The notes under the pieces are model-generated. The model did no database searches, had not been told where the DNA came from, and saw only the letters and a list, made by a program, of their open reading frames with translations. From positions 1 to 7,681 of the forward strand of contig JAFAWJ010000234.1 of NCBI GenBank assembly GCA_019242065.1: 7,681 bases of DNA. Reading direction: 5' to 3'. The stretch is from Chloroflexota bacterium (GTDB taxonomy: Bacteria; Chloroflexota; UBA6077; CF-72). The position numbers were made by a program, and so were the translations under genes. How positions within the stretch are numbered: the first letter of the stretch is position 1; the number at the start of each line of letters is the position of its first letter. Positions 1 to 7,681 of the stretch are shown in pieces.

Positions 1-2084
1 CGAACGAGGATGGCGCCTTCGGCTGTCGTGGCGGCCAGGGTCTCGGCGTCGGCGGACAGAGCCAGGGTTTCGATCTGGCCCAGAGCGGCGGGCAGTTCGT
101 CGGTGAGGCCGGGACCGCCGCGACCCAGGCTCCAGACGCTTGCGCCGCCGCCTGGCGAGGCGACTGCCAGGTGCGAGCCGTCGCCGCCGAACGCCAGGCG
201 CGTCACGCCGCGGCCGATCGGTAGGTGGGCCAGCGGCTCGCCGCCGCGCGCGTCCCAGACGGTGAGTCCCAGCCGCGGGCCCGCCGCGGCGATGCAGCGA
301 CCGTTGCGCGCGACTGCCAGCGCGGTGACCGACGCATGCGGCACGTCGGTGCTGAGCGGCCGGCCGCTGGCGACCTTCCAGCACTGCAGCCCGCCGTCGT
401 CGCTGGCGGCCGCCAGCCAGGCGCCGTTGCTGGAGAGCGCCACGCTTCGCAGCGTCCGTCCGCTGATGCAGAACACCTGACGTTCGCGCTGCAGCCGGAC
501 GTCCCAGATGCCGAGACGCCGTCCGTCGACCGCGAGTGCCAGCAGGTCGCCGGCTGGGGTGAAGGCGAGGGCGCGCGGGGCGCCGGCCGAGCGCGGCAGG
601 CGCAGGGTGCGCAGCGTGCGGCCCGTGGCGGCGTCCCGCAGCGTGATGCGGCCCTGGCGGTCGCCGCTGGCGATGGAGTGACCGTCAGGTGAGAGGGCCA
701 GACTGGTCTGGATGGAGGAGCGCCGCAGCTTCCAGGAGCGAGGCGTGTTTGCCTGGTCGCCGCTGGTGAGGGGTGCACCAGCAGGCGTCAGCGCGCGGCG
801 AGCGGGCGCCGCGGCGCCTTGCGGCCGATGGCGGGTGACAGGCGCACCTGGTGGCAGGGCCGTGCGGGCCGCGCGTGGCGTGCGACCACGGGCGATCTGG
901 GCACCTGGCGACAGGACTGCGCGGGAGCGGGGCGTCGGACTGCGAGGCCTCCCCGGCGGCGGGAGCGTACGGGCGAGGTTCGAGGCGGGCGAGGTCGGAC
1001 TGCCACGTGTCCCTGGCGGCGGGGTCGTCCGAGCGGGGGGCTGCGGGTTGCTCCGCGTGCGCGGCCCGGGCGTGTACAGGGTGTTCAGCACCGCAAGCGA
1101 CGCCCGCCGCAGTGTCCACGGGTTCGTCGCAACCCGCGGCTGCCGCGGTGCGGGCGCGTACAGGCTGTTGAGTACGGCGGCGTGGCGCGGACTCAGGGTT
1201 GGGCGGCCGGCGTTCAGGTACTCGTCGAGCGTCGGCACGCGCGCGTAGTCGGTCTGGCAAATGTCCGCGAAGCGCGCGCTCAGCTCACGGACGGCGCTCA
1301 GGCCAGCCAGGTCGCGAAAGACGGGCGACGCGGACGGGTTCACGAAGTCTGTGCGTCGGAACAGCAGGTTGTCGCCGGTGGTGTACGTCTGCCACAGCTG
1401 AGGCGCCACGGCCAGTGCGCGCAACGCCAGGACGATGACGATCGACGCGAAACGGTCCAGCTCCGCGTCGAACTGGAGCTGGCGGCGCGGATGCTGGTAG
1501 TTGGGATCACCGGTCTCGCTCGCCGGTCGGCCGTGGAGGGCGGGCACGAACATGCCGTCGTAGTCGACCAGCCGCAGCCTGCCGGAGCTGTCGACCAGCA
1601 CGTTGCCGTGCTGCAGGTCGCCGTGGGCGATGCCTAGCCGGCGCAGCTCGGCCACGGTGCTCACGAAACGCCGCTCGATGTCGAGCAAGGCGCTCGGCGT
1701 GGACAGGCGCTCCTCCACCGCGCGGTTGAGCGGGCGTCCCTCCAGCCAGGGCATTTTGGTGATTGGGTACCAGGTCTGGCCGACGCGGACGCCGGCGTCC
1801 AAGTATTCGATGGGCACCAGGGGTCCGGCGGGCAGGCGCGCGAGGCTCTGGCTGATCGCGGCGTAGCGCGCGGCCCGATCCGCGGCCTCACGGTGGAAGC
1901 AGCGCACCGCCCACTGGTGGGCGCCAGCACGCAGCTGGTAGGTCACCGCGAAGTTGCCGGCGACCGCGCGCGGCAAACCGAAGTTGCCGGTGGTGACCGA
2001 CGCTGAGCGGAGCTGGGGGTCGGCGAACGCGGTAGATGGATGCTGGACCGCTGCCTGATACGCGACCAGGTCAGGCAGGCGCAT
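1..2084 (-). CDS. Ser/Thr kinase-like protein with C-terminal WD40 repeats (TerY-P type), 3' end beyond window
   Basis: The reading frame is open from ATG at 2084 to the window edge (694 codons), so the C-terminus is missing. Residues 30-290 form a kinase-like domain: an ATP-lysine region read as WAVRCF (about 58-63, Arg at the usual Lys), catalytic loop HGDLQHGN (154-161, Asp156, Asn161) and DYDG (174-177) replacing DFG. A Pro/Arg-rich linker (about 300-450) carries internal repeats. From about 454 there are at least five WD40-type blades, with WD or W-x pairs at Trp527, 569, 610 and 651. The start overlaps the phosphatase end by 14 nt with no Shine-Dalgarno motif, suggesting translational coupling. 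The opening residues MRLPDLVAYQ resemble starts I recall for this kinase family. Probable role: phosphorylating partner proteins in a vWA/phosphatase/kinase switch, with WD40 as docking platform. Activity is uncertain because of the altered Lys and DFG positions. Confidence 0.9.
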   Translation of the reverse strand, partial: MRLPDLVAYQAAVQHPSTAFADPQLRSASVTTGNFGLPRAVAGNFAVTYQLRAGAHQWAVRCFHREAADRAARYAAISQSLARLPAGPLVPIEYLDAGVRVGQTWYPITKMPWLEGRPLNRAVEERLSTPSALLDIERRFVSTVAELRRLGIAHGDLQHGNVLVDSSGRLRLVDYDGMFVPALHGRPASETGDPNYQHPRRQLQFDAELDRFASIVIVLALRALAVAPQLWQTYTTGDNLLFRRTDFVNPSASPVFRDLAGLSAVRELSARFADICQTDYARVPTLDEYLNAGRPTLSPRHAAVLNSLYAPAPRQPRVATNPWTLRRASLAVLNTLYTPGPRTRSNPQPPARTTPPPGTRGSPTSPASNLARTLPPPGRPRSPTPRSRAVLSPGAQIARGRTPRAARTALPPGAPVTRHRPQGAAAPARRALTPAGAPLTSGDQANTPRSWKLRRSSIQTSLALSPDGHSIASGDRQGRITLRDAATGRTLRTLRLPRSAGAPRALAFTPAGDLLALAVDGRRLGIWDVRLQRERQVFCISGRTLRSVALSSNGAWLAAASDDGGLQCWKVASGRPLSTDVPHASVTALAVARNGRCIAAAGPRLGLTVWDARGGEPLAHLPIGRGVTRLAFGGDGSHLAVASPGGGASVWSLGRGGPGLTDELPAALGQIETLALSADAETLAATTAEGAILV

Positions 2085-2922
2085 CGGTTGGAAGGTCGAG
2101 CCAGATTAGCGAGACGTCGTCGTTGCGCAGCAGGCGCTCAGCGCGCAGCCACCGGACCCAGCGACGGAAGCCGCGCGCGGTGCGCGGGAAGTCCAGGACC
2201 TGGAGGGCCGAGCACGGCTGAATCTGGGCGAGTGGGAGCTGCGGCTGGAGTGCGGAGCCCGACTGCGCCTGGGCGGGCTGGAGCTCGGGCTGCGGTTGCG
2301 GCTGCGGTTGGAAATGGAGAGGCGGCTCGAATTGGAGCTGGCGATGACGGTGGAGAAAGCTGGCGGCCAGGGCGTCGGACATCAGCAGGAACGTGTCGCC
2401 CGCCTCCCAGGTGCCCGCGCTGGCCACGATCGCGCCATCCGCCCGCAAGCACGTGTTGGCCGCGGCGCGCGAGCCGAGCAGCAGCGGGTTGTTGCCGAAC
2501 GCCGCGGGATCGTCGAGCGGCAGAGCCGTCTGGAGCTGACCGGCGCGCACCTGAAACAGACACGCGTCGCCCACCGCGAGCGCGCTCCACGTCCCGCGCT
2601 CGTCCAGGGTCAGGCCGACCAGGGCCGCGAACGCACCGCGGCGCGCCTGCTCGACGGCGTACCACGGCAGCTCGCGCGCCTCCACCTCCGCCGACCACTG
2701 TTGCTGGAGGGGGACAAGGTCAGCTTCGAGCGACTCGGACGCCAGCCTGCCCGTGACGTAGGCCCGCACCAGCAGCTCGGCCCATCGTCGGGCAAAGGCG
2801 CTGGCGGAGGCGCCGTCGGCAACCGCGAAGCGGCGGTGGCGACGACTCCAGGCGATCGCGTCCTCGTATTCGGCGCGGGTGGAGCCGTCCTTGGCCAGTC
2901 GAAAGACGGACCGCCCGAGCAT
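2071..2922 (-). CDS. PP2C-family Ser/Thr protein phosphatase
   Basis: This 283-residue protein is probably a metal-dependent phosphatase opposing the neighbouring kinase. PP2C hallmarks appear in order: YEDA (Glu20-Asp21), VADGAS (Asp36-Gly37), AVGDACLF (Gly118-Asp119), LLMSDALA (Asp183) and NDDVSLIWL (Asp268/Asp269). The last replaces the usual Asp-Asn, and SDA replaces SDG. A Gln/Pro-rich stretch (about 196-236, including QPQPQPQPE) sits between the last two metal motifs. It is an unusual low-complexity insertion inside the catalytic domain. I chose ATG at 2922, one base after the vWA stop. An in-frame TTG at 2952 would add ten residues and overlap the vWA gene by 29 nt. Neither start has a clear ribosome site. 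PP2C identity rests on motif order and spacing; the divergent motifs leave some doubt about activity. Confidence 0.86.
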   Translation of the reverse strand: MLGRSVFRLAKDGSTRAEYEDAIAWSRRHRRFAVADGASASAFARRWAELLVRAYVTGRLASESLEADLVPLQQQWSAEVEARELPWYAVEQARRGAFAALVGLTLDERGTWSALAVGDACLFQVRAGQLQTALPLDDPAAFGNNPLLLGSRAAANTCLRADGAIVASAGTWEAGDTFLLMSDALAASFLHRHRQLQFEPPLHFQPQPQPQPELQPAQAQSGSALQPQLPLAQIQPCSALQVLDFPRTARGFRRWVRWLRAERLLRNDDVSLIWLDLPTDAPA

Positions 2923-2923
2923 C

Positions 2924-3760
2924 TCAGCGCAGGTTGGCTGGACGCGTGCCAATGTCCAGGAACTGGATCACCGCGGCGGCGTCGGCGTTGAAGACGAAAC
3001 CGCGCGTGCCGTCTTGGACGGCGTAGCCCTCCTGTCGGGCCGCCGACTGTAGATGCGGAGGCAGGCTGCTGGACATGCTGAACAGGCGACGCGCGAAGTT
3101 GTCGGGCAGGGTCTCGTCGCTGGACGGGAACTCGACCGACGGCGCGCGCCGGTCGGACAGGTGGACGTTGAACAGCAGCGCCTCGCCGTCGTCGGTGGCT
3201 AGCGACTGGAGGGCCAGGGCGGCGGGCGACGGATCGCCGTCGGTGGCCTCGCCGTCGGTGATGTTGAACACCACGGGCGGAAAGGCGCTCGCGTGCTGCT
3301 CGACCCACGTCGACAGCGCCTGGCGACCCTGGCTCAGGGCCTCGGTCATGGGTGTGCCACCGTTGGCCTGGGGGTCGACCCAGATCGGGAACTTGACGGT
3401 CTGTTCGACGAGGCCGCCGGCGCCGTCAGGGATCTTCTGGGCGCGGTCCTCGACGCGCAGTGGCGCGTTGGCGAGGCGGCTGATCGACACGATCGGGCTG
3501 GCGTCGCAGGCGAGGCTGAGCGCGTGCTTGACGCTGGCGCCGTAGCCGATGACGCCGACGTCGAAGTAGTCGCGCACGCCCTCGTCTTTCGAGCAACGGA
3601 TCACCAGTGAGGCCAGGAGGCGGTTGATGATGGTGGCCAGCTCGTCGGCCTTGGAGTGGCCGGCGGCGCCCGAGAAGGCGTCGCTCATGGAGCCGGACTG
3701 GTCGAGGAGGAACAAAAAGCAACCAGGGTTGGAGCGGCTGATGTCTGCCTGGTAAGCCAT
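2924..3760 (-). CDS. vWA-domain protein, TerY-like, intact MIDAS
   Basis: First gene of the left operon, 278 residues and essentially one von Willebrand factor A domain. The metal-ion-dependent adhesion site is complete: DQSGS (Asp20, Ser22, Ser24), Thr136 in NGGTPM and Asp169 in ITDGE. No signal peptide or membrane segment is visible, so a cytoplasmic protein is expected. TerY-type vWA proteins are cytoplasmic and are found beside a PP2C phosphatase and a kinase, as here, and are thought to act as metal-dependent scaffolds or phosphorylation targets. ATG at 3760 is followed by a typical short lead into the first beta strand. There is no Shine-Dalgarno sequence, but AT-rich TAGCCT and TAAGCT hexamers lie just upstream. 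The 3' end leaves one base before the phosphatase ATG. I am confident of the fold; the partner relationships are inferred from gene order. Confidence 0.93.
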   Translation of the reverse strand: MAYQADISRSNPGCFLFLLDQSGSMSDAFSGAAGHSKADELATIINRLLASLVIRCSKDEGVRDYFDVGVIGYGASVKHALSLACDASPIVSISRLANAPLRVEDRAQKIPDGAGGLVEQTVKFPIWVDPQANGGTPMTEALSQGRQALSTWVEQHASAFPPVVFNITDGEATDGDPSPAALALQSLATDDGEALLFNVHLSDRRAPSVEFPSSDETLPDNFARRLFSMSSSLPPHLQSAARQEGYAVQDGTRGFVFNADAAAVIQFLDIGTRPANLR

Positions 3761-3843
3761 CGGAGCTTAAGGCTAAGACCTGGTGGGCCGCAGCTTCGGT
3801 CACGATGCCGCTCCAAACAAAGTGCCTTGATTTGCATGCGGAC
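3761..3843 (-). promoter_or_regulatory. Probable promoter region of the vWA/PP2C/kinase operon
   Basis: This is the non-repetitive spacer between the tandem palindromes and the vWA start codon, and it is less GC-rich than its surroundings. Read on the minus strand it ends CTTAGCCTTAAGCTCCG before the ATG, offering two TANNNT boxes (TAGCCT and TAAGCT) 9 and 3 nt from the start. No convincing -35 element is paired with either. A promoter is expected here because the upstream methyltransferase is separated by 167 nt and the palindrome array, but the exact box is a guess. Confidence 0.3.
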
Positions 3844-3916
3844 CCCAGCGGCACATGTGCCGCTGGGCAAGGTGGCGCATGCGCCACCTTGGGGAGTCCG
3901 CGCATGCGCGGACTCC
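3844..3916. repeat. Array of three tandem perfect 24-bp palindromes with CATG centres
   Basis: Three perfect palindromes occupy 3844-3867, 3868-3891 and 3893-3916; the first two abut and one G separates the last two. Each has the same plan: a 10-base left arm, CATG, then the exact reverse complement of the arm. The arms differ: CCCAGCGGCA, CAAGGTGGCG and GGAGTCCGCG. On either strand each can fold as a 10-bp stem closed by a CATG loop. A possible decayed half unit (GCATGCGGACCCC) lies just left at 3834-3846. The array starts 11 bases past the methyltransferase stop and ends about 83 bases before the vWA start. No T-tract follows, so a classical intrinsic terminator is unlikely. It resembles a REP/BIME-type extragenic palindrome cluster; its function is unknown. 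Confidence 0.92.
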
Positions 3917-3927
3917 GACCTACGAAT

Positions 3928-4650
3928 CTACTTACTGCCCCCGTAGATGACCCAGTCGAGGCGCTTCCAGAAGACGTCGATGTCTTTGAAGCCCGCGCTG
4001 CGCAGCCACTCGAGCTGAGGCTGCAGCGGGATCATGTAGCGGACGTGGTTCTCGTACCGCGCCTGCTCCAGCTCGGTGCGGTGGGTGCGTTTGTAAGGGG
4101 CTTCGGGGTCGTAGCGATCGTTGACTCGCTCCCAGATGGCTTCGATGCGGTCTTCGGGCGCGCGGATCGGATCGTAGTTCAGGTACCAGCCGCCGGGCCG
4201 CAGGTGCGCGTACACCTCGCCGAACATGGCGCGTTTGCGCTCGTCGGGCAGGTGGTGGATGCTCAAGGCTGAGACCGCGGCGTCCAGCGTCTGTGACCCG
4301 AGCAGCGACCAGTCGGGACTGAGCATGTCGAACTCGACGTACCGGTAGCGTCCCTCGAAGGCGGCCATGGCGCGCGTACCCTCGGCGGTCATTTGGGGCG
4401 AAAACTCGCCGAGCAGCGCGTTGGCGCGCGGATACTCGGCCAGGATGGCGCGGCTGGCGGCGCCGGTGCCGGCGCCCAGGTCCAGAAACGTGAAGGCGTC
4501 GTCGGGTCCGAACGGCAGCAGACGGGCGAGAAGCGTCAGTTGGTCACGCCGCTGCTGCTCGCGCTGTTCGGACTGCGCCGCGAAGATTCGCGCCACCTCT
4601 TCGGACTTCCAGAGGGCGGCGTTGGTATCGGGATCGGATGGATCCGGCAT
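3928..4650 (-). CDS. Class I SAM-dependent methyltransferase
   Basis: This 240-residue protein has the standard Rossmann-type methyltransferase layout: motif I FLDLGAGTGAAS (about 55-66), the acidic end of strand 2 in LLGEFSPQM (about 79-87), a motif near LDAAVSALSIHHLP (122-135) and LRPGGWYLNYDP (150-161). The C-terminal part (LQPQLEWLRSAGFKDIDVFW) is typical of small-molecule methyltransferases. The substrate cannot be read from the sequence. Several in-frame starts exist. I prefer ATG at 4650 because TAAGAT ends 7 nt upstream, as in leaderless transcripts, and MPDPSDPDTN precedes the first helix. ATG at 4659 or 4677 would add 3 or 9 residues. It diverges from the dehydrogenase gene. The frame stays open far upstream, but that part is antisense to the dehydrogenase and is not coding. 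Confidence 0.9.
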   Translation of the reverse strand: MPDPSDPDTNAALWKSEEVARIFAAQSEQREQQRRDQLTLLARLLPFGPDDAFTFLDLGAGTGAASRAILAEYPRANALLGEFSPQMTAEGTRAMAAFEGRYRYVEFDMLSPDWSLLGSQTLDAAVSALSIHHLPDERKRAMFGEVYAHLRPGGWYLNYDPIRAPEDRIEAIWERVNDRYDPEAPYKRTHRTELEQARYENHVRYMIPLQPQLEWLRSAGFKDIDVFWKRLDWVIYGGSK

Positions 4651-4687
4651 CGCCCTCATCTTATCGGGGGCTACCATTTGTGACGCG
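4651..4687. promoter_or_regulatory. 37-bp divergent promoter of the methyltransferase and dehydrogenase genes
   Basis: Only 37 bases separate the two divergent start codons, and neither side has a Shine-Dalgarno motif. On the minus strand TAAGAT (4663-4658) ends 7 nt before the methyltransferase ATG at 4650. On the plus strand TACCAT (4672-4677) lies 10 nt before the dehydrogenase ATG at 4688. TANNNT at these distances is the arrangement known for leaderless or near-leaderless bacterial transcripts. The two boxes are 8 nt apart, so the promoters must share DNA and probably compete or are co-regulated. This is inferred from spacing alone. Confidence 0.5.
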
Positions 4688-5620
4688 ATGTCAGATGTCC
4701 TGGTGGTAGCCCCCATCCACGAAGATGCGCTGCAGCTCATGCGCGACGGCGGGCTCGGCGTGACCGATGCCCGCGGCAAATCGCCCGAAGAGTTGCGCGA
4801 GCTGCTCAAGACCCACCGTGCGCTGCTTGGTCGGGCGGGTGTGAAGATCGACGACGAGCTGCTGGCCGAGGCGCCGCAACTGCGCGTGGTGGCGGTCGGC
4901 TCGGTTGGCATGGACAGTCTCGACCTGCCGTATCTGTACAGTCGGGGCCTGAAGGTCTTCAACGCGGCGGGTGGCAACCGCAACGCGGTGGCCGAGCTGG
5001 CCGTGGGCAACGCCATCGCGCTCCTGCGCCAGACGCATAAGGCCAACAACGACCTGCACAAGGGCATCTGGCCGGCGATGTTCCAGCGGCCCGAGGGTTT
5101 CGAGCTGTGGCACAAGACGGTCGGGATCGTCGGACTGGGTGACATCGGCTCGCTGGTAGCGCGGCTGTTCCTGGCCTTCGAGACGACGGTGATCGCCTAC
5201 GACCCGTACGTGCGCTATGTATATGACTCGGCGTCGCGCCAGACGTCGGCCGTGGAGATGGTCAAGCTCGACGACCTGCTGCAGCGGTCGGACCTGATCA
5301 CCGTGCACGTGCCGCTGACCGACGAGACGTTCCACATGTTTTCCGCCGAGCAATTCAAGCGGATGAAGCCGACGGCGTATTTCATGAACTACTCGCGCGG
5401 CAAGGTGGTGGACGAGCCGTCGCTGGCTGATGCGCTGGAGACCCAGCAGATTGCGGGTGCGGCGATCGACGTCTTCGAGGTGGAGCCGGCCAACGACTCG
5501 GTGCTGCTGGGGCTGCCGAACTGCATCGTGACGCCGCACATCGCGGGCGTGCCGCGCGAAGCCATGCGGCGCCTCGGGATGACCGTGGCACAGCGTATCC
5601 TCAACGAGCTCACTCACTGA
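4688..5620 (+). CDS. D-isomer-specific 2-hydroxyacid dehydrogenase (PGDH-like), NAD-dependent
   Basis: This 310-residue protein is of normal length for the family of NAD(P)-dependent D-2-hydroxyacid dehydrogenases (phosphoglycerate, glycerate, lactate and similar). The nucleotide-binding loop is VGLGDIG with GxGxxG at 149-154, and Asp172 in AYDPY suggests NAD rather than NADP. The catalytic triad is complete: Arg237 in NYSRGK, Glu266 in DVFEVEP and His284 in TPHIAG. No C-terminal ACT regulatory domain is present, so it is not a long-form SerA. The substrate is not determinable; the short glycine-rich AVGSVGMDSLD (69-79) is the usual substrate-loop region. The frame is open further upstream, but ATG at 4688 begins the canonical first beta strand (MSDVLVVAPI). 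It diverges from a methyltransferase and ends 2 nt before a palindrome. Confidence 0.95.
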   Translation: MSDVLVVAPIHEDALQLMRDGGLGVTDARGKSPEELRELLKTHRALLGRAGVKIDDELLAEAPQLRVVAVGSVGMDSLDLPYLYSRGLKVFNAAGGNRNAVAELAVGNAIALLRQTHKANNDLHKGIWPAMFQRPEGFELWHKTVGIVGLGDIGSLVARLFLAFETTVIAYDPYVRYVYDSASRQTSAVEMVKLDDLLQRSDLITVHVPLTDETFHMFSAEQFKRMKPTAYFMNYSRGKVVDEPSLADALETQQIAGAAIDVFEVEPANDSVLLGLPNCIVTPHIAGVPREAMRRLGMTVAQRILNELTH

Positions 5621-5622
5621 AC

Positions 5623-5660
5623 TTTGGAGGGAGCCCGCGCATGCGCGGACTCCCCCCAAA
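5623..5660. repeat. Long imperfect palindrome related to the 3893-3916 repeat
   Basis: The 38-bp inverted repeat is centred on CATG (5640-5643) with only two mismatched pairs (5628/5655 and 5634/5649). Its inner 24 bases (5630-5653) match the third palindrome of the 3844-3916 array except for one base (arm GGAGCCCGCG instead of GGAGTCCGCG). The mismatch is A-C across the stem in DNA; read as RNA from the other strand it is G-U. It begins 2 nt after the dehydrogenase stop. Outer arms are TTTGG and CCAAA. No T-run follows on the plus strand, so it is at best a weak terminator; it may instead protect the 3' end of the transcript or be a REP-like element. Confidence 0.85.
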
Positions 5661-5664
5661 TACG

Positions 5665-5673
5665 TGATATGCT
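5665..5673 (+). promoter_or_regulatory. Extended -10 promoter of the spike-protein operon
   Basis: TGATATGCT fits an extended -10 element (TG, one base, then TATGCT), placed 21 nt before the ATG at 5695. Transcription would start near 5680, giving a short leader containing GGGAAAGAG (5682-5690), the nearest thing to a ribosome site in the window. No -35 is recognisable; the expected place lies inside the palindrome ending at 5660, so palindrome structure or a bound protein could affect this promoter. This is a prediction from motif and position only. Confidence 0.5.
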
Positions 5674-5694
5674 TCCGCCACGGGAAAGAGACCA

Positions 5695-5946
5695 ATGTTG
5701 AAGTTGGGACACGGGAGAACGTTGAGCGTCGAAGCGCTGGACGACGCGGAGCTTGTCGAGATCCGTGGGGCCGACGGTGTCTTGGAGTTGCGCCTCAAGC
5801 TGACGGAGGATGGGGTGGTCCTCCAGTTGGAGGCCGCGCGGATTTCGCTCAAGGCCGAGCAGTCCATCGACGTGGAGTGCGAGACGTTCAACGTCAACGC
5901 CTCCGCCGACGTGCGCGTGCGCGGCGAGCGCGTCTACATCAACTGA
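5695..5946 (+). CDS. Short beta-repeat protein, VgrG/gp5-tail-like
   Basis: This 83-residue protein is not firmly recognised. From about residue 35 it shows alternating hydrophobic/polar strands of roughly eight residues (VVLQLEAA, RISLKAEQ, SIDVECET, FNVNASAD, VRVRGERV), the pattern of the triple-stranded beta-helix needle at the C-terminus of VgrG, gp5 and related baseplate spikes. It has no signal peptide. It lies 5 nt upstream of a PAAR gene, so a role as a spike or adaptor segment beneath the PAAR tip is a reasonable inference. ATG at 5695 follows a partial ribosome site GGGAAAGAG. A trimeric needle would be expected if this reading is right. Alternative: a small unrelated beta-rich protein of unknown role. 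Confidence 0.72.
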   Translation: MLKLGHGRTLSVEALDDAELVEIRGADGVLELRLKLTEDGVVLQLEAARISLKAEQSIDVECETFNVNASADVRVRGERVYIN

Positions 5947-5951
5947 TTCCC

Positions 5952-6338
5952 ATGCCGCCGGCCGCGCGCCAGACCGACCTGACGCTGCACGATGCGCCGC
6001 ACTGTCACGCGCCGATTCATCCACCGGCGCCGGTGCCGACGCCGGTGCCGCATCCGCCAATTCCCTTTCCGATCGTGCTCAACTGCGTGGAGACGGTGCT
6101 GGTCGGAGGTCTGCCGGCGGCGGTGGTGGGGTCGATGACTCAGATGTGTCTGGTGCCGCCGTGTGTACCGGGTGGACCGGGCATGATTGCCATGGGCTCC
6201 ACCACGGTGATGATTGGTGGTCGACCGGCGGCGCGCGTGGGTGACCTGGTGAGCTTCACGTCATGCGTGGCCCCGATTCCGAGTCCGACCGGCCACATTC
6301 TGCCGCCCGGAGCGCCGACGGTCATCATCGGCGGCTGA
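5952..6338 (+). CDS. PAAR-type spike-tip protein
   Basis: The 128-residue protein resembles PAAR proteins, the zinc-binding cone that caps VgrG-type spikes of type VI secretion and contractile injection systems. It opens MPPAARQTDL, typical for the family, and has repeated glycine turns with the sequences VLVGGLPAAVVGS (49-61), VMIGGRPAARVGD (86-98) and TVIIGG (123-128). An unusual His/Cys/Pro-rich segment (about 13-41, HDAPHCHAPIHPP then PVPTPVPHPPIPFP) lies after the first motif. His13, 17, 19, 23, 34 and 115 and Cys18, 45, 66, 71 and 105 could supply metal ligands. No toxin domain follows, so cargo would be separate. It starts 5 nt after the beta-repeat gene and lacks a Shine-Dalgarno motif, consistent with coupled translation. 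Confidence 0.88.
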   Translation: MPPAARQTDLTLHDAPHCHAPIHPPAPVPTPVPHPPIPFPIVLNCVETVLVGGLPAAVVGSMTQMCLVPPCVPGGPGMIAMGSTTVMIGGRPAARVGDLVSFTSCVAPIPSPTGHILPPGAPTVIIGG

Positions 6339-6344
6339 ATCGAG

Positions 6345-7418
6345 GTGCGGCGCGAGCACCTCGAGCGCCTGCAACCGGTGTGTCCGGCGTGCCGCGCCAG
6401 CGGGCGGCCGGCGGCGGCGTTGCGACTGGGGACCGTCGTCGCGTGTGAGGACGACGACGCGGATATTCGTGAGGGTGTGCTCGTGTGCACCGAGCCGGTG
6501 TGTCAGCGCGAACATCCCATCGTCGACGGGATTCCGATCGTCGTGTCGGACCTGTCGTCGTGGGCCGCCCACCAGCTGAATGCGGTGTTGTGGCGGTCGG
6601 ACCTCTCGCCGTTTACGGAGAGTTTGCTGGGGGATGCCGCCGGACCGGCGTCCGAATTCGAGCGCCAGCGCACGACATTGAGTGCGTACGGACGGGTGCA
6701 CTGGGGCGACTTCGATGCTGTCGAACCACTGGAGTCCGCCGCGTCGCTTGCGGGGCTACTGGCGGCGGCACGTGAGCTGCTGGATGCGCCGCCGACCGGC
6801 ATCTGGCTCGATCTCGGGTGCGCAGCTGGCCGTGCGACGTACGAGACTGCCCTCGCGGGACGTGAGCTGGTGGTGGGCGTCGACCTGAGCTTTGCGATGT
6901 TGCGCGTCGCCGAGGGGGCGCGGCGAACGGGGCGGGCGGTGTTTCCGATTCGGCGCGTGGGCCTGGTGTTCGACCGGTGCGAGGTTGTCGTGCCGCAGGT
7001 GCCGGCGGAGCGGATGGCGTACTGGTGTTGCGACGTGGACAATCTGCCATTTGGTGACGCGGGGTTTGACGGTGCGCTGAGCTTGAACGTGCTGGATTGC
7101 GTGCCGTCGCCGGTGCAGCACCTGGTGGAGATGGGTCGCGTGCTGCGGGCGGGGGCTTCGGCGTTGCTGTCGACGCCGTACGACTGGGCGGCGACGGCCA
7201 CGCCGGTGGCGCAGTGGCTGGGTGGACATTCGCAGCGCAGCGAGGCGCACGGGTCGAGCGCGGCCGAGCTGCGGCGGGCGTTGCGGATGGTGGATACAGG
7301 GCTGGCGATTGCCGCGGAGCGGGATCGCGTGCCGTGGCGCGTGTATGTCAACGAGCGGGCATCGATGGACTACGCGGTGCACGTGTTGCGGCTGGCGCGC
7401 CGCGAGCGACCGGAGTGA
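6345..7418 (+). CDS. SAM methyltransferase with N-terminal Trm112-like zinc ribbon
   Basis: This is a 357-residue two-domain protein. Residues 1-65 carry a four-cysteine zinc ribbon (Cys13, Cys16, Cys48, Cys53) ending in HPIVDGIPIVV, the signature of the Trm112-like module. The methyltransferase domain follows: WLDLGCAAGRAT (154-165), GVDLSFAML (178-186, acidic Asp180), DVDNLPF (230-236), ALSLNVLDCVPSP (244-256) and RVLRAGASALLSTPYDW (265-281). The substrate is unknown. The start is GTG at 6345, 6 nt after the PAAR stop, without a clear ribosome site; it is the only sensible start upstream of the zinc ribbon. Position in a PAAR operon suggests it modifies the spike or its cargo, or is itself delivered. 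Both ideas are inference. The long insertion at about 190-230 between strand 2 and the NLPF motif contains no recognised domain. Confidence 0.88.
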   Translation: MRREHLERLQPVCPACRASGRPAAALRLGTVVACEDDDADIREGVLVCTEPVCQREHPIVDGIPIVVSDLSSWAAHQLNAVLWRSDLSPFTESLLGDAAGPASEFERQRTTLSAYGRVHWGDFDAVEPLESAASLAGLLAAARELLDAPPTGIWLDLGCAAGRATYETALAGRELVVGVDLSFAMLRVAEGARRTGRAVFPIRRVGLVFDRCEVVVPQVPAERMAYWCCDVDNLPFGDAGFDGALSLNVLDCVPSPVQHLVEMGRVLRAGASALLSTPYDWAATATPVAQWLGGHSQRSEAHGSSAAELRRALRMVDTGLAIAAERDRVPWRVYVNERASMDYAVHVLRLARRERPE

Positions 7419-7681
7419 CGGGTTCGGCCCTGTAGGACGTGACCGTAACCATGGGTAAGGAGCTTCTGGTACCCCTCGGGTAGCCACTGAACGGGGAACG
7501 TGGCTGCCAGCGCCCGAGACCACGCCACTGGTGGCATCGGCCTTTCGCGACAAACTCATACTTGGGAGGGACCGGTGGCAGGGGGCGAGCGGCGACGGTG
7601 AGGCAGACGGGGTTGTGGCGGGGGCGGTACGCTGTTGAGCCTGGTGACCCCTGAGCCACACCCAGTCCTGCGCGACGCGGC
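7419..7681. other. Terminal intergenic region with possible structured RNA
   Basis: No convincing gene is visible in this stretch. On the plus strand two adjacent stems can form: GGGTA/TACCC (7453-7457 with 7470-7474, 12-base loop), then CTCGGG/CCCGAG (7475-7480 with 7513-7518) capped by TAGCCAC/GTGGCTG (7481-7487 with 7500-7506, 12-base loop) and a 6-base bulge. It matches no riboswitch or stable RNA I recognise. Near the end a TACGCT box (7628-7633) precedes an open frame from TTG 7635 or GTG 7644 (MTPEPHPVLRDA) that runs off the window. This could be the start of another gene but is too short to call. Confidence 0.35.

Follow-up and report, generated by a model that had tools for sequence, protein, structure and literature searches.

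CATG-centred palindromic repeats with symmetrically varying arms resemble REPs in a narrow group of Chloroflexota

Introduction

REPINs (doublets of repetitive extragenic palindromes, REPs, forming hairpins) and bacterial interspersed mosaic elements (BIMEs) consist of two inverted hairpin blocks around a spacer that appear to spread together. Thermomicrobium roseum, known for its GTAG-23 repeats, is placed in the Chloroflexota. REPs are described as short extragenic hairpins near gene 3′ ends, with a tag at the foot and many copies per genome, and GTAG repeats have been reported in Chloroflexi (PMC3733652); REPs that are perfect palindromes are also described (PMC8266576). Outside bacteria, repetitive hairpin-forming or double hairpin elements of mitochondria are presented as dispersed repeats, taken as mobile and in part perfect (PMC2800124). 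Here we analyse a stretch of 7,681 nucleotides from a Chloroflexota bacterium (contig JAFAWJ010000234.1 of assembly GCA_019242065.1, positions 1 to 7,681, forward strand), hereafter the window, which carries a tandem array of three palindromes at 3844–3916. We conclude that this array is probably a copy of a REP/REPIN-like, non-autonomous hairpin family of a narrow Chloroflexota group, to which it was limited in the genomes searched, with arms kept identical at the DNA level.

Results

Palindromic units of the window and of two related genomes

The array consists of three perfect palindromes at 3844–3867, 3868–3891 and 3893–3916, each of 24 bp with 10-bp arms and a CATG centre, and the gaps between successive units are 0 nt and 1 nt. 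Three such tandem palindromes were what the original prediction, made from the letters alone, had noticed, and they are present exactly there: the window holds three perfect 24-mer palindromes versus none across 400 first-order Markov resamples of it. Folded as single-stranded DNA, the array forms three hairpins with −38.3 kcal/mol (z = −8.6). A fourth unit, GGAGCCCGCGCATGCGCGGACTCC, which the original prediction had not mentioned, is located at 5630–5653; 11 of its 12 pairs match, and its sequence departs from that of the third unit of the array at a single base.

Further copies were found in two metagenome-assembled genomes (MAGs) of Chloroflexota, G001 (JAFAZN01) and G002 (JAFAOS01), which belong to one taxonomic family (four genomes). 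The G001 sample comprised 33 loci and 490 kb, picked because they contained hits, so that densities in these loci are not genome averages; the G002 sample comprised 139 kb of loci. In the G001 loci, 53 perfect palindromes were at least 22 bp long; CATG was the centre of every one, and the length was exactly 24 bp in 47 of them. Nine palindromes had other centres, each spanning 18–20 bp. Four perfect 24-bp CATG palindromes were present in the G002 loci. Altogether, 50 perfect CATG-centred 24-mers represented 25 distinct sequences, in which position 8 was always G and position 9 A or C. The building block is N7-G-M-N-CATG-N-K-C-N7, with few arm classes.

A symmetric protein recognizing the GMNCATGNKC centre as a dimer, with arms kept symmetric for that protein, would account for a fixed length and centre combined with variable outer arms, and the tandem spacing of 24/25 bp corresponds arithmetically to about 2.3 helical turns. 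Base-specific binding would nevertheless be expected to conserve the arms, whereas 9 of 10 arm positions vary in the 25 distinct units. Nor would an operator be expected to have the boundaries of an element, to leave empty sites or to enclose a middle segment of about 200 bp, all described below, and we consider a dimeric binding site very unlikely.

Array grammar and larger elements

Units were found solo, in ordered triplets, or as inverted arrays around about 200–240 bp. Type I triplets follow the order C, B, 1 nt, A, in the window as well as in six aligned G001 arrays. In the window, the class C unit is the inner one (3844–3867) and aligns with class C of these six arrays; it is followed by the class B unit (3868–3891, CA....GGCGCATGCGCC....TG), a single spacer base (3892) at the same position in all six, and the outer, class A unit (3893–3916, GGAG....CTCC). 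Type II triplets run from an outer unit through the CCAGGCGGA class to the inner CGATCATGATCG class. Two of nine type I arrays (C23_2172 and C220_917) and five of twelve type II arrays were omitted from the alignments.

The arms had at first been taken as unrelated in sequence. The three units do differ from each other, but their arms are not arbitrary, each unit belonging to a class that recurs elsewhere. Similarly, the argument that copying would have preserved the arms was not supported: C, B and A recur together as one block, inside which each class has acquired symmetric changes. The three different arms of the window are therefore no paradox: what recurs is a block of three different units, each of them varying within its class.

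Facing arrays were found in G001, for example, at L021 4449–4799, L021 6370–6726 and L073 16118–16498, with a shorter case at L078 691–989, and G002 carries a 417-bp form with exact 72-bp inverted ends (L084 5662–6078, contig C325). The REPIN layout of inverted hairpin blocks around a spacer is present at both L021 positions and at L073, L078 and L084, while the window has one array with no partner facing it. The middle of the G001 elements holds further repeat modules, and similar modules match in another genome, G004. Five G004 stretches (N excluded) contained no perfect palindrome of at least 16 bp, and the search of G004 for class A gave no sites. At three G004 loci (L140, L142 and L143) a module of the form GGGGGTCGCCGCGGGAAGGAGCG...GGCGGCGGGGGGC resembles the middles of the G001 elements; its occurrence there without CATG palindromes suggests a repeat family distinct from the present one. 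A chimeric unit was also observed at L077 1649–1672, one half of the CCAAG class and the other of the CGCAG class, joined at the common GATCATGATC centre, a structure that recombination or slippage between the middles of two units might have produced.

Symmetric variation of the arms

For covariation, two alignments were used, each with seven arrays, together comprising 60 pairs and 420 cells; being palindromic was in part a criterion for choosing the arrays. Changes on both sides were seen in 23 of the 60 aligned pairs and changes on one side that still allowed pairing in none, which bears out the compensatory arm changes envisaged in the original prediction. At the level of cells, there were 49 double changes, one of them giving a U-G pair, and 3 of 420 cells were unpaired; none of 500 shuffles reached these values. 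With a search based on half-sites only, 47 of the 59 G001 sites with at most three mismatched pairs were perfect, and the remaining hits (of 1376) resembled a chance background centred on 8–9 mismatches. The same search in G002 gave five perfect sites and four with one mismatched pair. Sites within three mismatches of class A numbered 20 in G001 and 16 in G002. Half of the G001 sites (10/20) were identical to the pattern and the other 10 had two differences, symmetric in nine of them but not in C54:21644.

One unit, the single most informative example for a DNA-level cause, extends into a coding sequence. The liv operon encodes a branched-chain amino acid ABC transporter according to Pfam, and the right arm of the terminal unit at L021 4776–4799 (G001 contig C23) is made of the ATG and first codons of livG (MSELL), the non-coding left arm being its exact complement. 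Elsewhere livG starts with MTDLL (G002) or MAELL (G004). This has two possible origins: mirroring of the livG start could have created the palindrome, or the left arm could have taken over a coding change made in the right one. At this unit GGAG is located 7 nt ahead of the livG ATG, and a class A unit gives GGAG-N7-ATG on both strands.

Gain and loss between relatives

Element boundaries could be read at the liv operon. Between livM and livG, G001 carries a 351-bp element, whereas the livM stop overlaps the livG start in G002. Downstream of livF, a 357-bp element is present in G001, while in G002 just 2 bp separate the matches to its two flanks. These two L021 copies thus have base-level empty sites in G002. 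At a third site, a solo class A unit with one mismatch in G002 corresponds to a composite of about 240 bp in G001.

The window itself was compared in the same manner. Its dehydrogenase is 93% identical to that of G002 and 92% to that of G001, and most of the window has a syntenic counterpart in G002, the locus L126, with a nucleotide identity of 72–84%. The window thus very likely derives from the group to which G001 and G002 belong. Both the array and the solo unit are absent from this syntenic locus. Similarly, neither was found at a G001 locus, where only the methyltransferase and the dehydrogenase match the window. In G002 a 6-phosphogluconate dehydrogenase gene (L126 9315–10220; PF03446, PF00393) lies between the VWA and methyltransferase genes, the array's place in the window. 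At the position of the solo unit, G002 has another inverted repeat, of the CCCTCACCC...GGGAGAGG type (L126 7400–7540); two unrelated repeats hence share one post-stop site.

Copies of about 300–420 bp with two inverted ends and base-level empty sites could also be expected of a miniature inverted-repeat transposable element (MITE) derived from a classical DDE transposon with terminal inverted repeats TTTGG-GGAG, and the 72-bp terminal inverted repeats of the 417-bp G002 copy are exact. But no target-site duplication was recognised by eye at the two empty sites, copies made of a solo unit or one array are common, and an autonomous copy was not recognised among the sites listed. A MITE is a distinctly unlikely explanation.

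Placement relative to genes and the outer tag

The suspicion of an extragenic repeat class was supported by dispersed units and by mapping to genes: none of 28 clusters lay inside called genes, and three overlapped a called gene start by 13–28 nt. Genes were called by a simple GC-frame script which missed some ends, including that of the window methyltransferase. Many clusters begin 2–16 nt past a stop codon. In G001, 11 of 17 clusters lie at most 16 nt from a gene 3′ end, as opposed to 4.6% of random intergenic points. For comparison, most convergent REPs in two species are reported to lie no farther than 20 bp from the 3′ ends of both neighbouring genes (PMC3733652).

This placement also suits an RNA element, in which tandem hairpins of the 3′ untranslated region would be selected in the mRNA for exonuclease protection or an effect on ribosomes, without any special DNA process. 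Many outer units indeed lie 2–16 nt past the stop codon, and ribosome stalling is reported for those E. coli REPs that are no more than 15 nt from a stop codon (PMC12306157). However, selection on RNA would leave G-U intermediates. No one-sided pairing change was seen in the 60 pairs and a single U-G pair in 420 cells, which favours a cause at the DNA level; the 6 of 17 G001 clusters lacking a called 3′ end inside 16 nt likewise speak against an RNA element, and we judge it unlikely. Of the options offered originally, a process that perfects palindromes at the DNA level is favoured over selection on an RNA fold, wobble intermediates being nearly absent; the third, dimeric recognition of the centre, keeps the low probability given above.

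Outer flanks carry a short tag, TTTGG-N2. Of 37 outer flanks, 20 contained the exact pentanucleotide TTTGG, compared with an average of 2.3 after shuffling, and positions −7 to −3 were T, T, T, G and G in 27, 31, 28, 31 and 34 of the 37, respectively. The count covers 37 of 41 outer flanks, omitting both sides of the unit in G003 (an ‘Acidobacteria’ MAG) and a single flank at L090 11042 as well as at L106 1501. In the window the tag is absent from the triplet and present on both sides of the solo class A unit (5630–5653): TTTGGAG lies outside it at 5623–5629 (+ strand), 2 nt past the dehydrogenase stop codon, and the mirrored CCCCAAA, which pairs with TTTGG in the DNA fold, on the other side at 5654–5660 (+ strand).

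GC-rich hairpins past stop codons are also reminiscent of intrinsic transcription terminators, and the single G003 copy, the sole class A unit found in that genome (L005 4931–4954), has seven Ts directly after the hairpin on the minus strand. We read the G003 unit as an ordinary terminator sharing the 24-mer by chance. Across the 37 flanks, which come from the window, G001 and G002, the T-rich stretch (TTTGG) by contrast precedes the hairpin as seen from the gene. This polarity contradicts an intrinsic terminator for the family, an explanation we find scarcely credible.

Distribution of the family

A scan of genome contigs with the outer-unit 24-mer returned five stretches, four in G001 or G002 and one in G003. 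A model of the type I array matched only G001 and G002 among 400 Chloroflexota genomes (strict, 12 candidates scored per genome), and again only these two when 150 candidates were scored in each of the 16 genomes belonging to the order. In the order, at E ≤ 0.01, it gave 46 matches in G001 and 6 in G002, overlapping matches and both strands counted. A two-core pattern matched in 1 of 29 genomes of the class.

No blastn match to 3830–3930 of the window was found in phage or plasmid collections, and the exact class A pattern had no match in IMG/VR; a phage or plasmid origin was rejected on these grounds. The class C pattern occurred on three contigs, with a perfect 24-mer only in L144. We read that one as chance, since it is single and, judged by eye, apparently in coding sequence. 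Similarly, a known RNA family was rejected since Rfam gave no match for the window or for L021 1–7500. The exact 24-mer did not appear in the full-text literature covered, which excludes subscription papers. With the same exclusion, none of the listed matches on Chloroflexota REPs, MITEs or palindromic repeats described the family in its title or the start of its abstract.

Gene context of the window copies

The array lies between two genes of the minus strand. A methyltransferase-domain gene (3928–4659, PF13649) ends 11 nt from it, facing the outer unit first; the interval 3917–3930, which includes the stop codon TAG (3928–3930), carries no TTTGG tag. On the inner side lies the 5′ end of a VWA-domain gene (2924–3760, PF00092). 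The solo unit follows a D-2-hydroxyacid dehydrogenase gene (4688–5620, plus strand), whose stop is 9 nt ahead of it. Genes with PP2C, VWA and PAAR domains occupy 2071–3760 and 5952–6338, and these neighbours may be part of a contractile injection or signalling cluster.

Discussion

The repeats described here form extragenic hairpins near gene 3′ ends, with a short foot tag and in many copies, like REPs. They differ by the tag, TTTGG-N2 instead of GTAG or CGTC, which occurred in 2 and 1 of 37 outer flanks (14 nt) against 2.9 and 0.64 after shuffling. They differ as well by a fixed length of 24 bp, the CATG centre and ordered triplets of distinct classes, and no REP-associated tyrosine transposase (RAYT) was found in G001 or G002. 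The likeness to REPINs and BIMEs lies in inverted hairpin blocks that flank a spacer and apparently move together, except that here the array at each end holds as many as three perfect palindromes. The GTAG-23 repeats of T. roseum are REP repeats in the same phylum, likened to ours by description and not by sequence. The mitochondrial hairpin elements are also dispersed and some are perfect, but they are organellar, and the part of their description considered here mentions no CATG centre, triplet order or placement at stop codons. Within REP/REPIN-like repeats, the family is set apart by its own tag, its fixed unit size and centre and its array grammar.

How the repeats spread is a separate matter. 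The REP-type Y1 transposase that the original prediction proposed to look for was not found: Y1_Tnp (PF01797) gave no hit in the two carrier MAGs, where gaps are possible, while it was found in G003, G004 and G005. A REP driven by a RAYT was rejected on the absence of PF01797 from the G001 and G002 results and of any excess of GTAG or CGTC tags. Spread would depend on a mobilising enzyme, and the arms would be corrected through the hairpin. Copies may be inserted or retained just past stop codons, where their distribution was observed. A change in one arm would then be copied to the other at the DNA level, so that arms stay perfect. The most likely route would be templating in a hairpin or cruciform, that is quasipalindrome template switching, during replication or the element's own copying; any effect on the mRNA or translation of the upstream gene would be secondary. 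Polymerase template switching is reported to homogenise the arms of short inverted repeats in yeast (PMC8604942), and template-switch mutation at quasipalindromes is reported in E. coli (PMC7202029). Such switching likewise makes arms identical, although it is a mutational process and not an element, and we apply it here by inference. More tentatively, and with confidence well below even, we suggest that a TTTGG-tagged, CATG-centred class could spread through a single-stranded hairpin handled by a non-Y1 enzyme; every round of copying would rebuild one arm on the model of the other, so that palindromes perfect themselves and absorb codons such as those of the livG start.

Several observations weigh against a mobile family with arms corrected at the DNA level. 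Both carrier MAGs are fragmented, and the negative result for a mobilising enzyme counts here too. Among the 36 listed class A sites, pairs less than 5 kb apart exist only on G001 C23, G001 C220 and G002 C325. On G001 C23 the liv transport genes lie between the paired sites, and no pair of class A units around a transposase was recognised among the listed sites, a comparison blind to outer units whose arms differ. On visual inspection, neither base-level empty site showed a recognisable target-site duplication. The excess near stop codons becomes weak when each intergenic region is weighted once, with 43.9% expected, and 6 of the 17 G001 clusters fall outside the 16-nt limit from a called 3′ end. 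Perfection is not absolute either, as indicated by imperfect copies and a 22-bp GTAC palindrome in the G002 loci: of the 9 half-site hits in G002 that have one mismatched pair or none, 4 are imperfect, and its 16 class A sites divide into 5 identical, 1 symmetric and 10 imperfect ones. The original prediction was to fall if no further units existed or if relatives showed decayed arms. The outcome is mixed: many further units exist, and decayed copies do occur in the relative G002 at these 10 of 16 class A sites. The data are matched about equally well by arms that are perfect when inserted and decay later and by arms under continuous correction.

A copy of a non-autonomous hairpin family with arms kept identical at the DNA level is nonetheless the explanation we consider probable for the window array. 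The family adds a distinctive tag to the REP-like repeats and, as no transposase was found for it, bears on what moves such repeats where no RAYT is detected. Moreover, with dozens of short inverted repeats of one size and centre in one genome, which change symmetrically and seldom on one side, the homogenisation of arms in bacteria becomes measurable from sequence alone.
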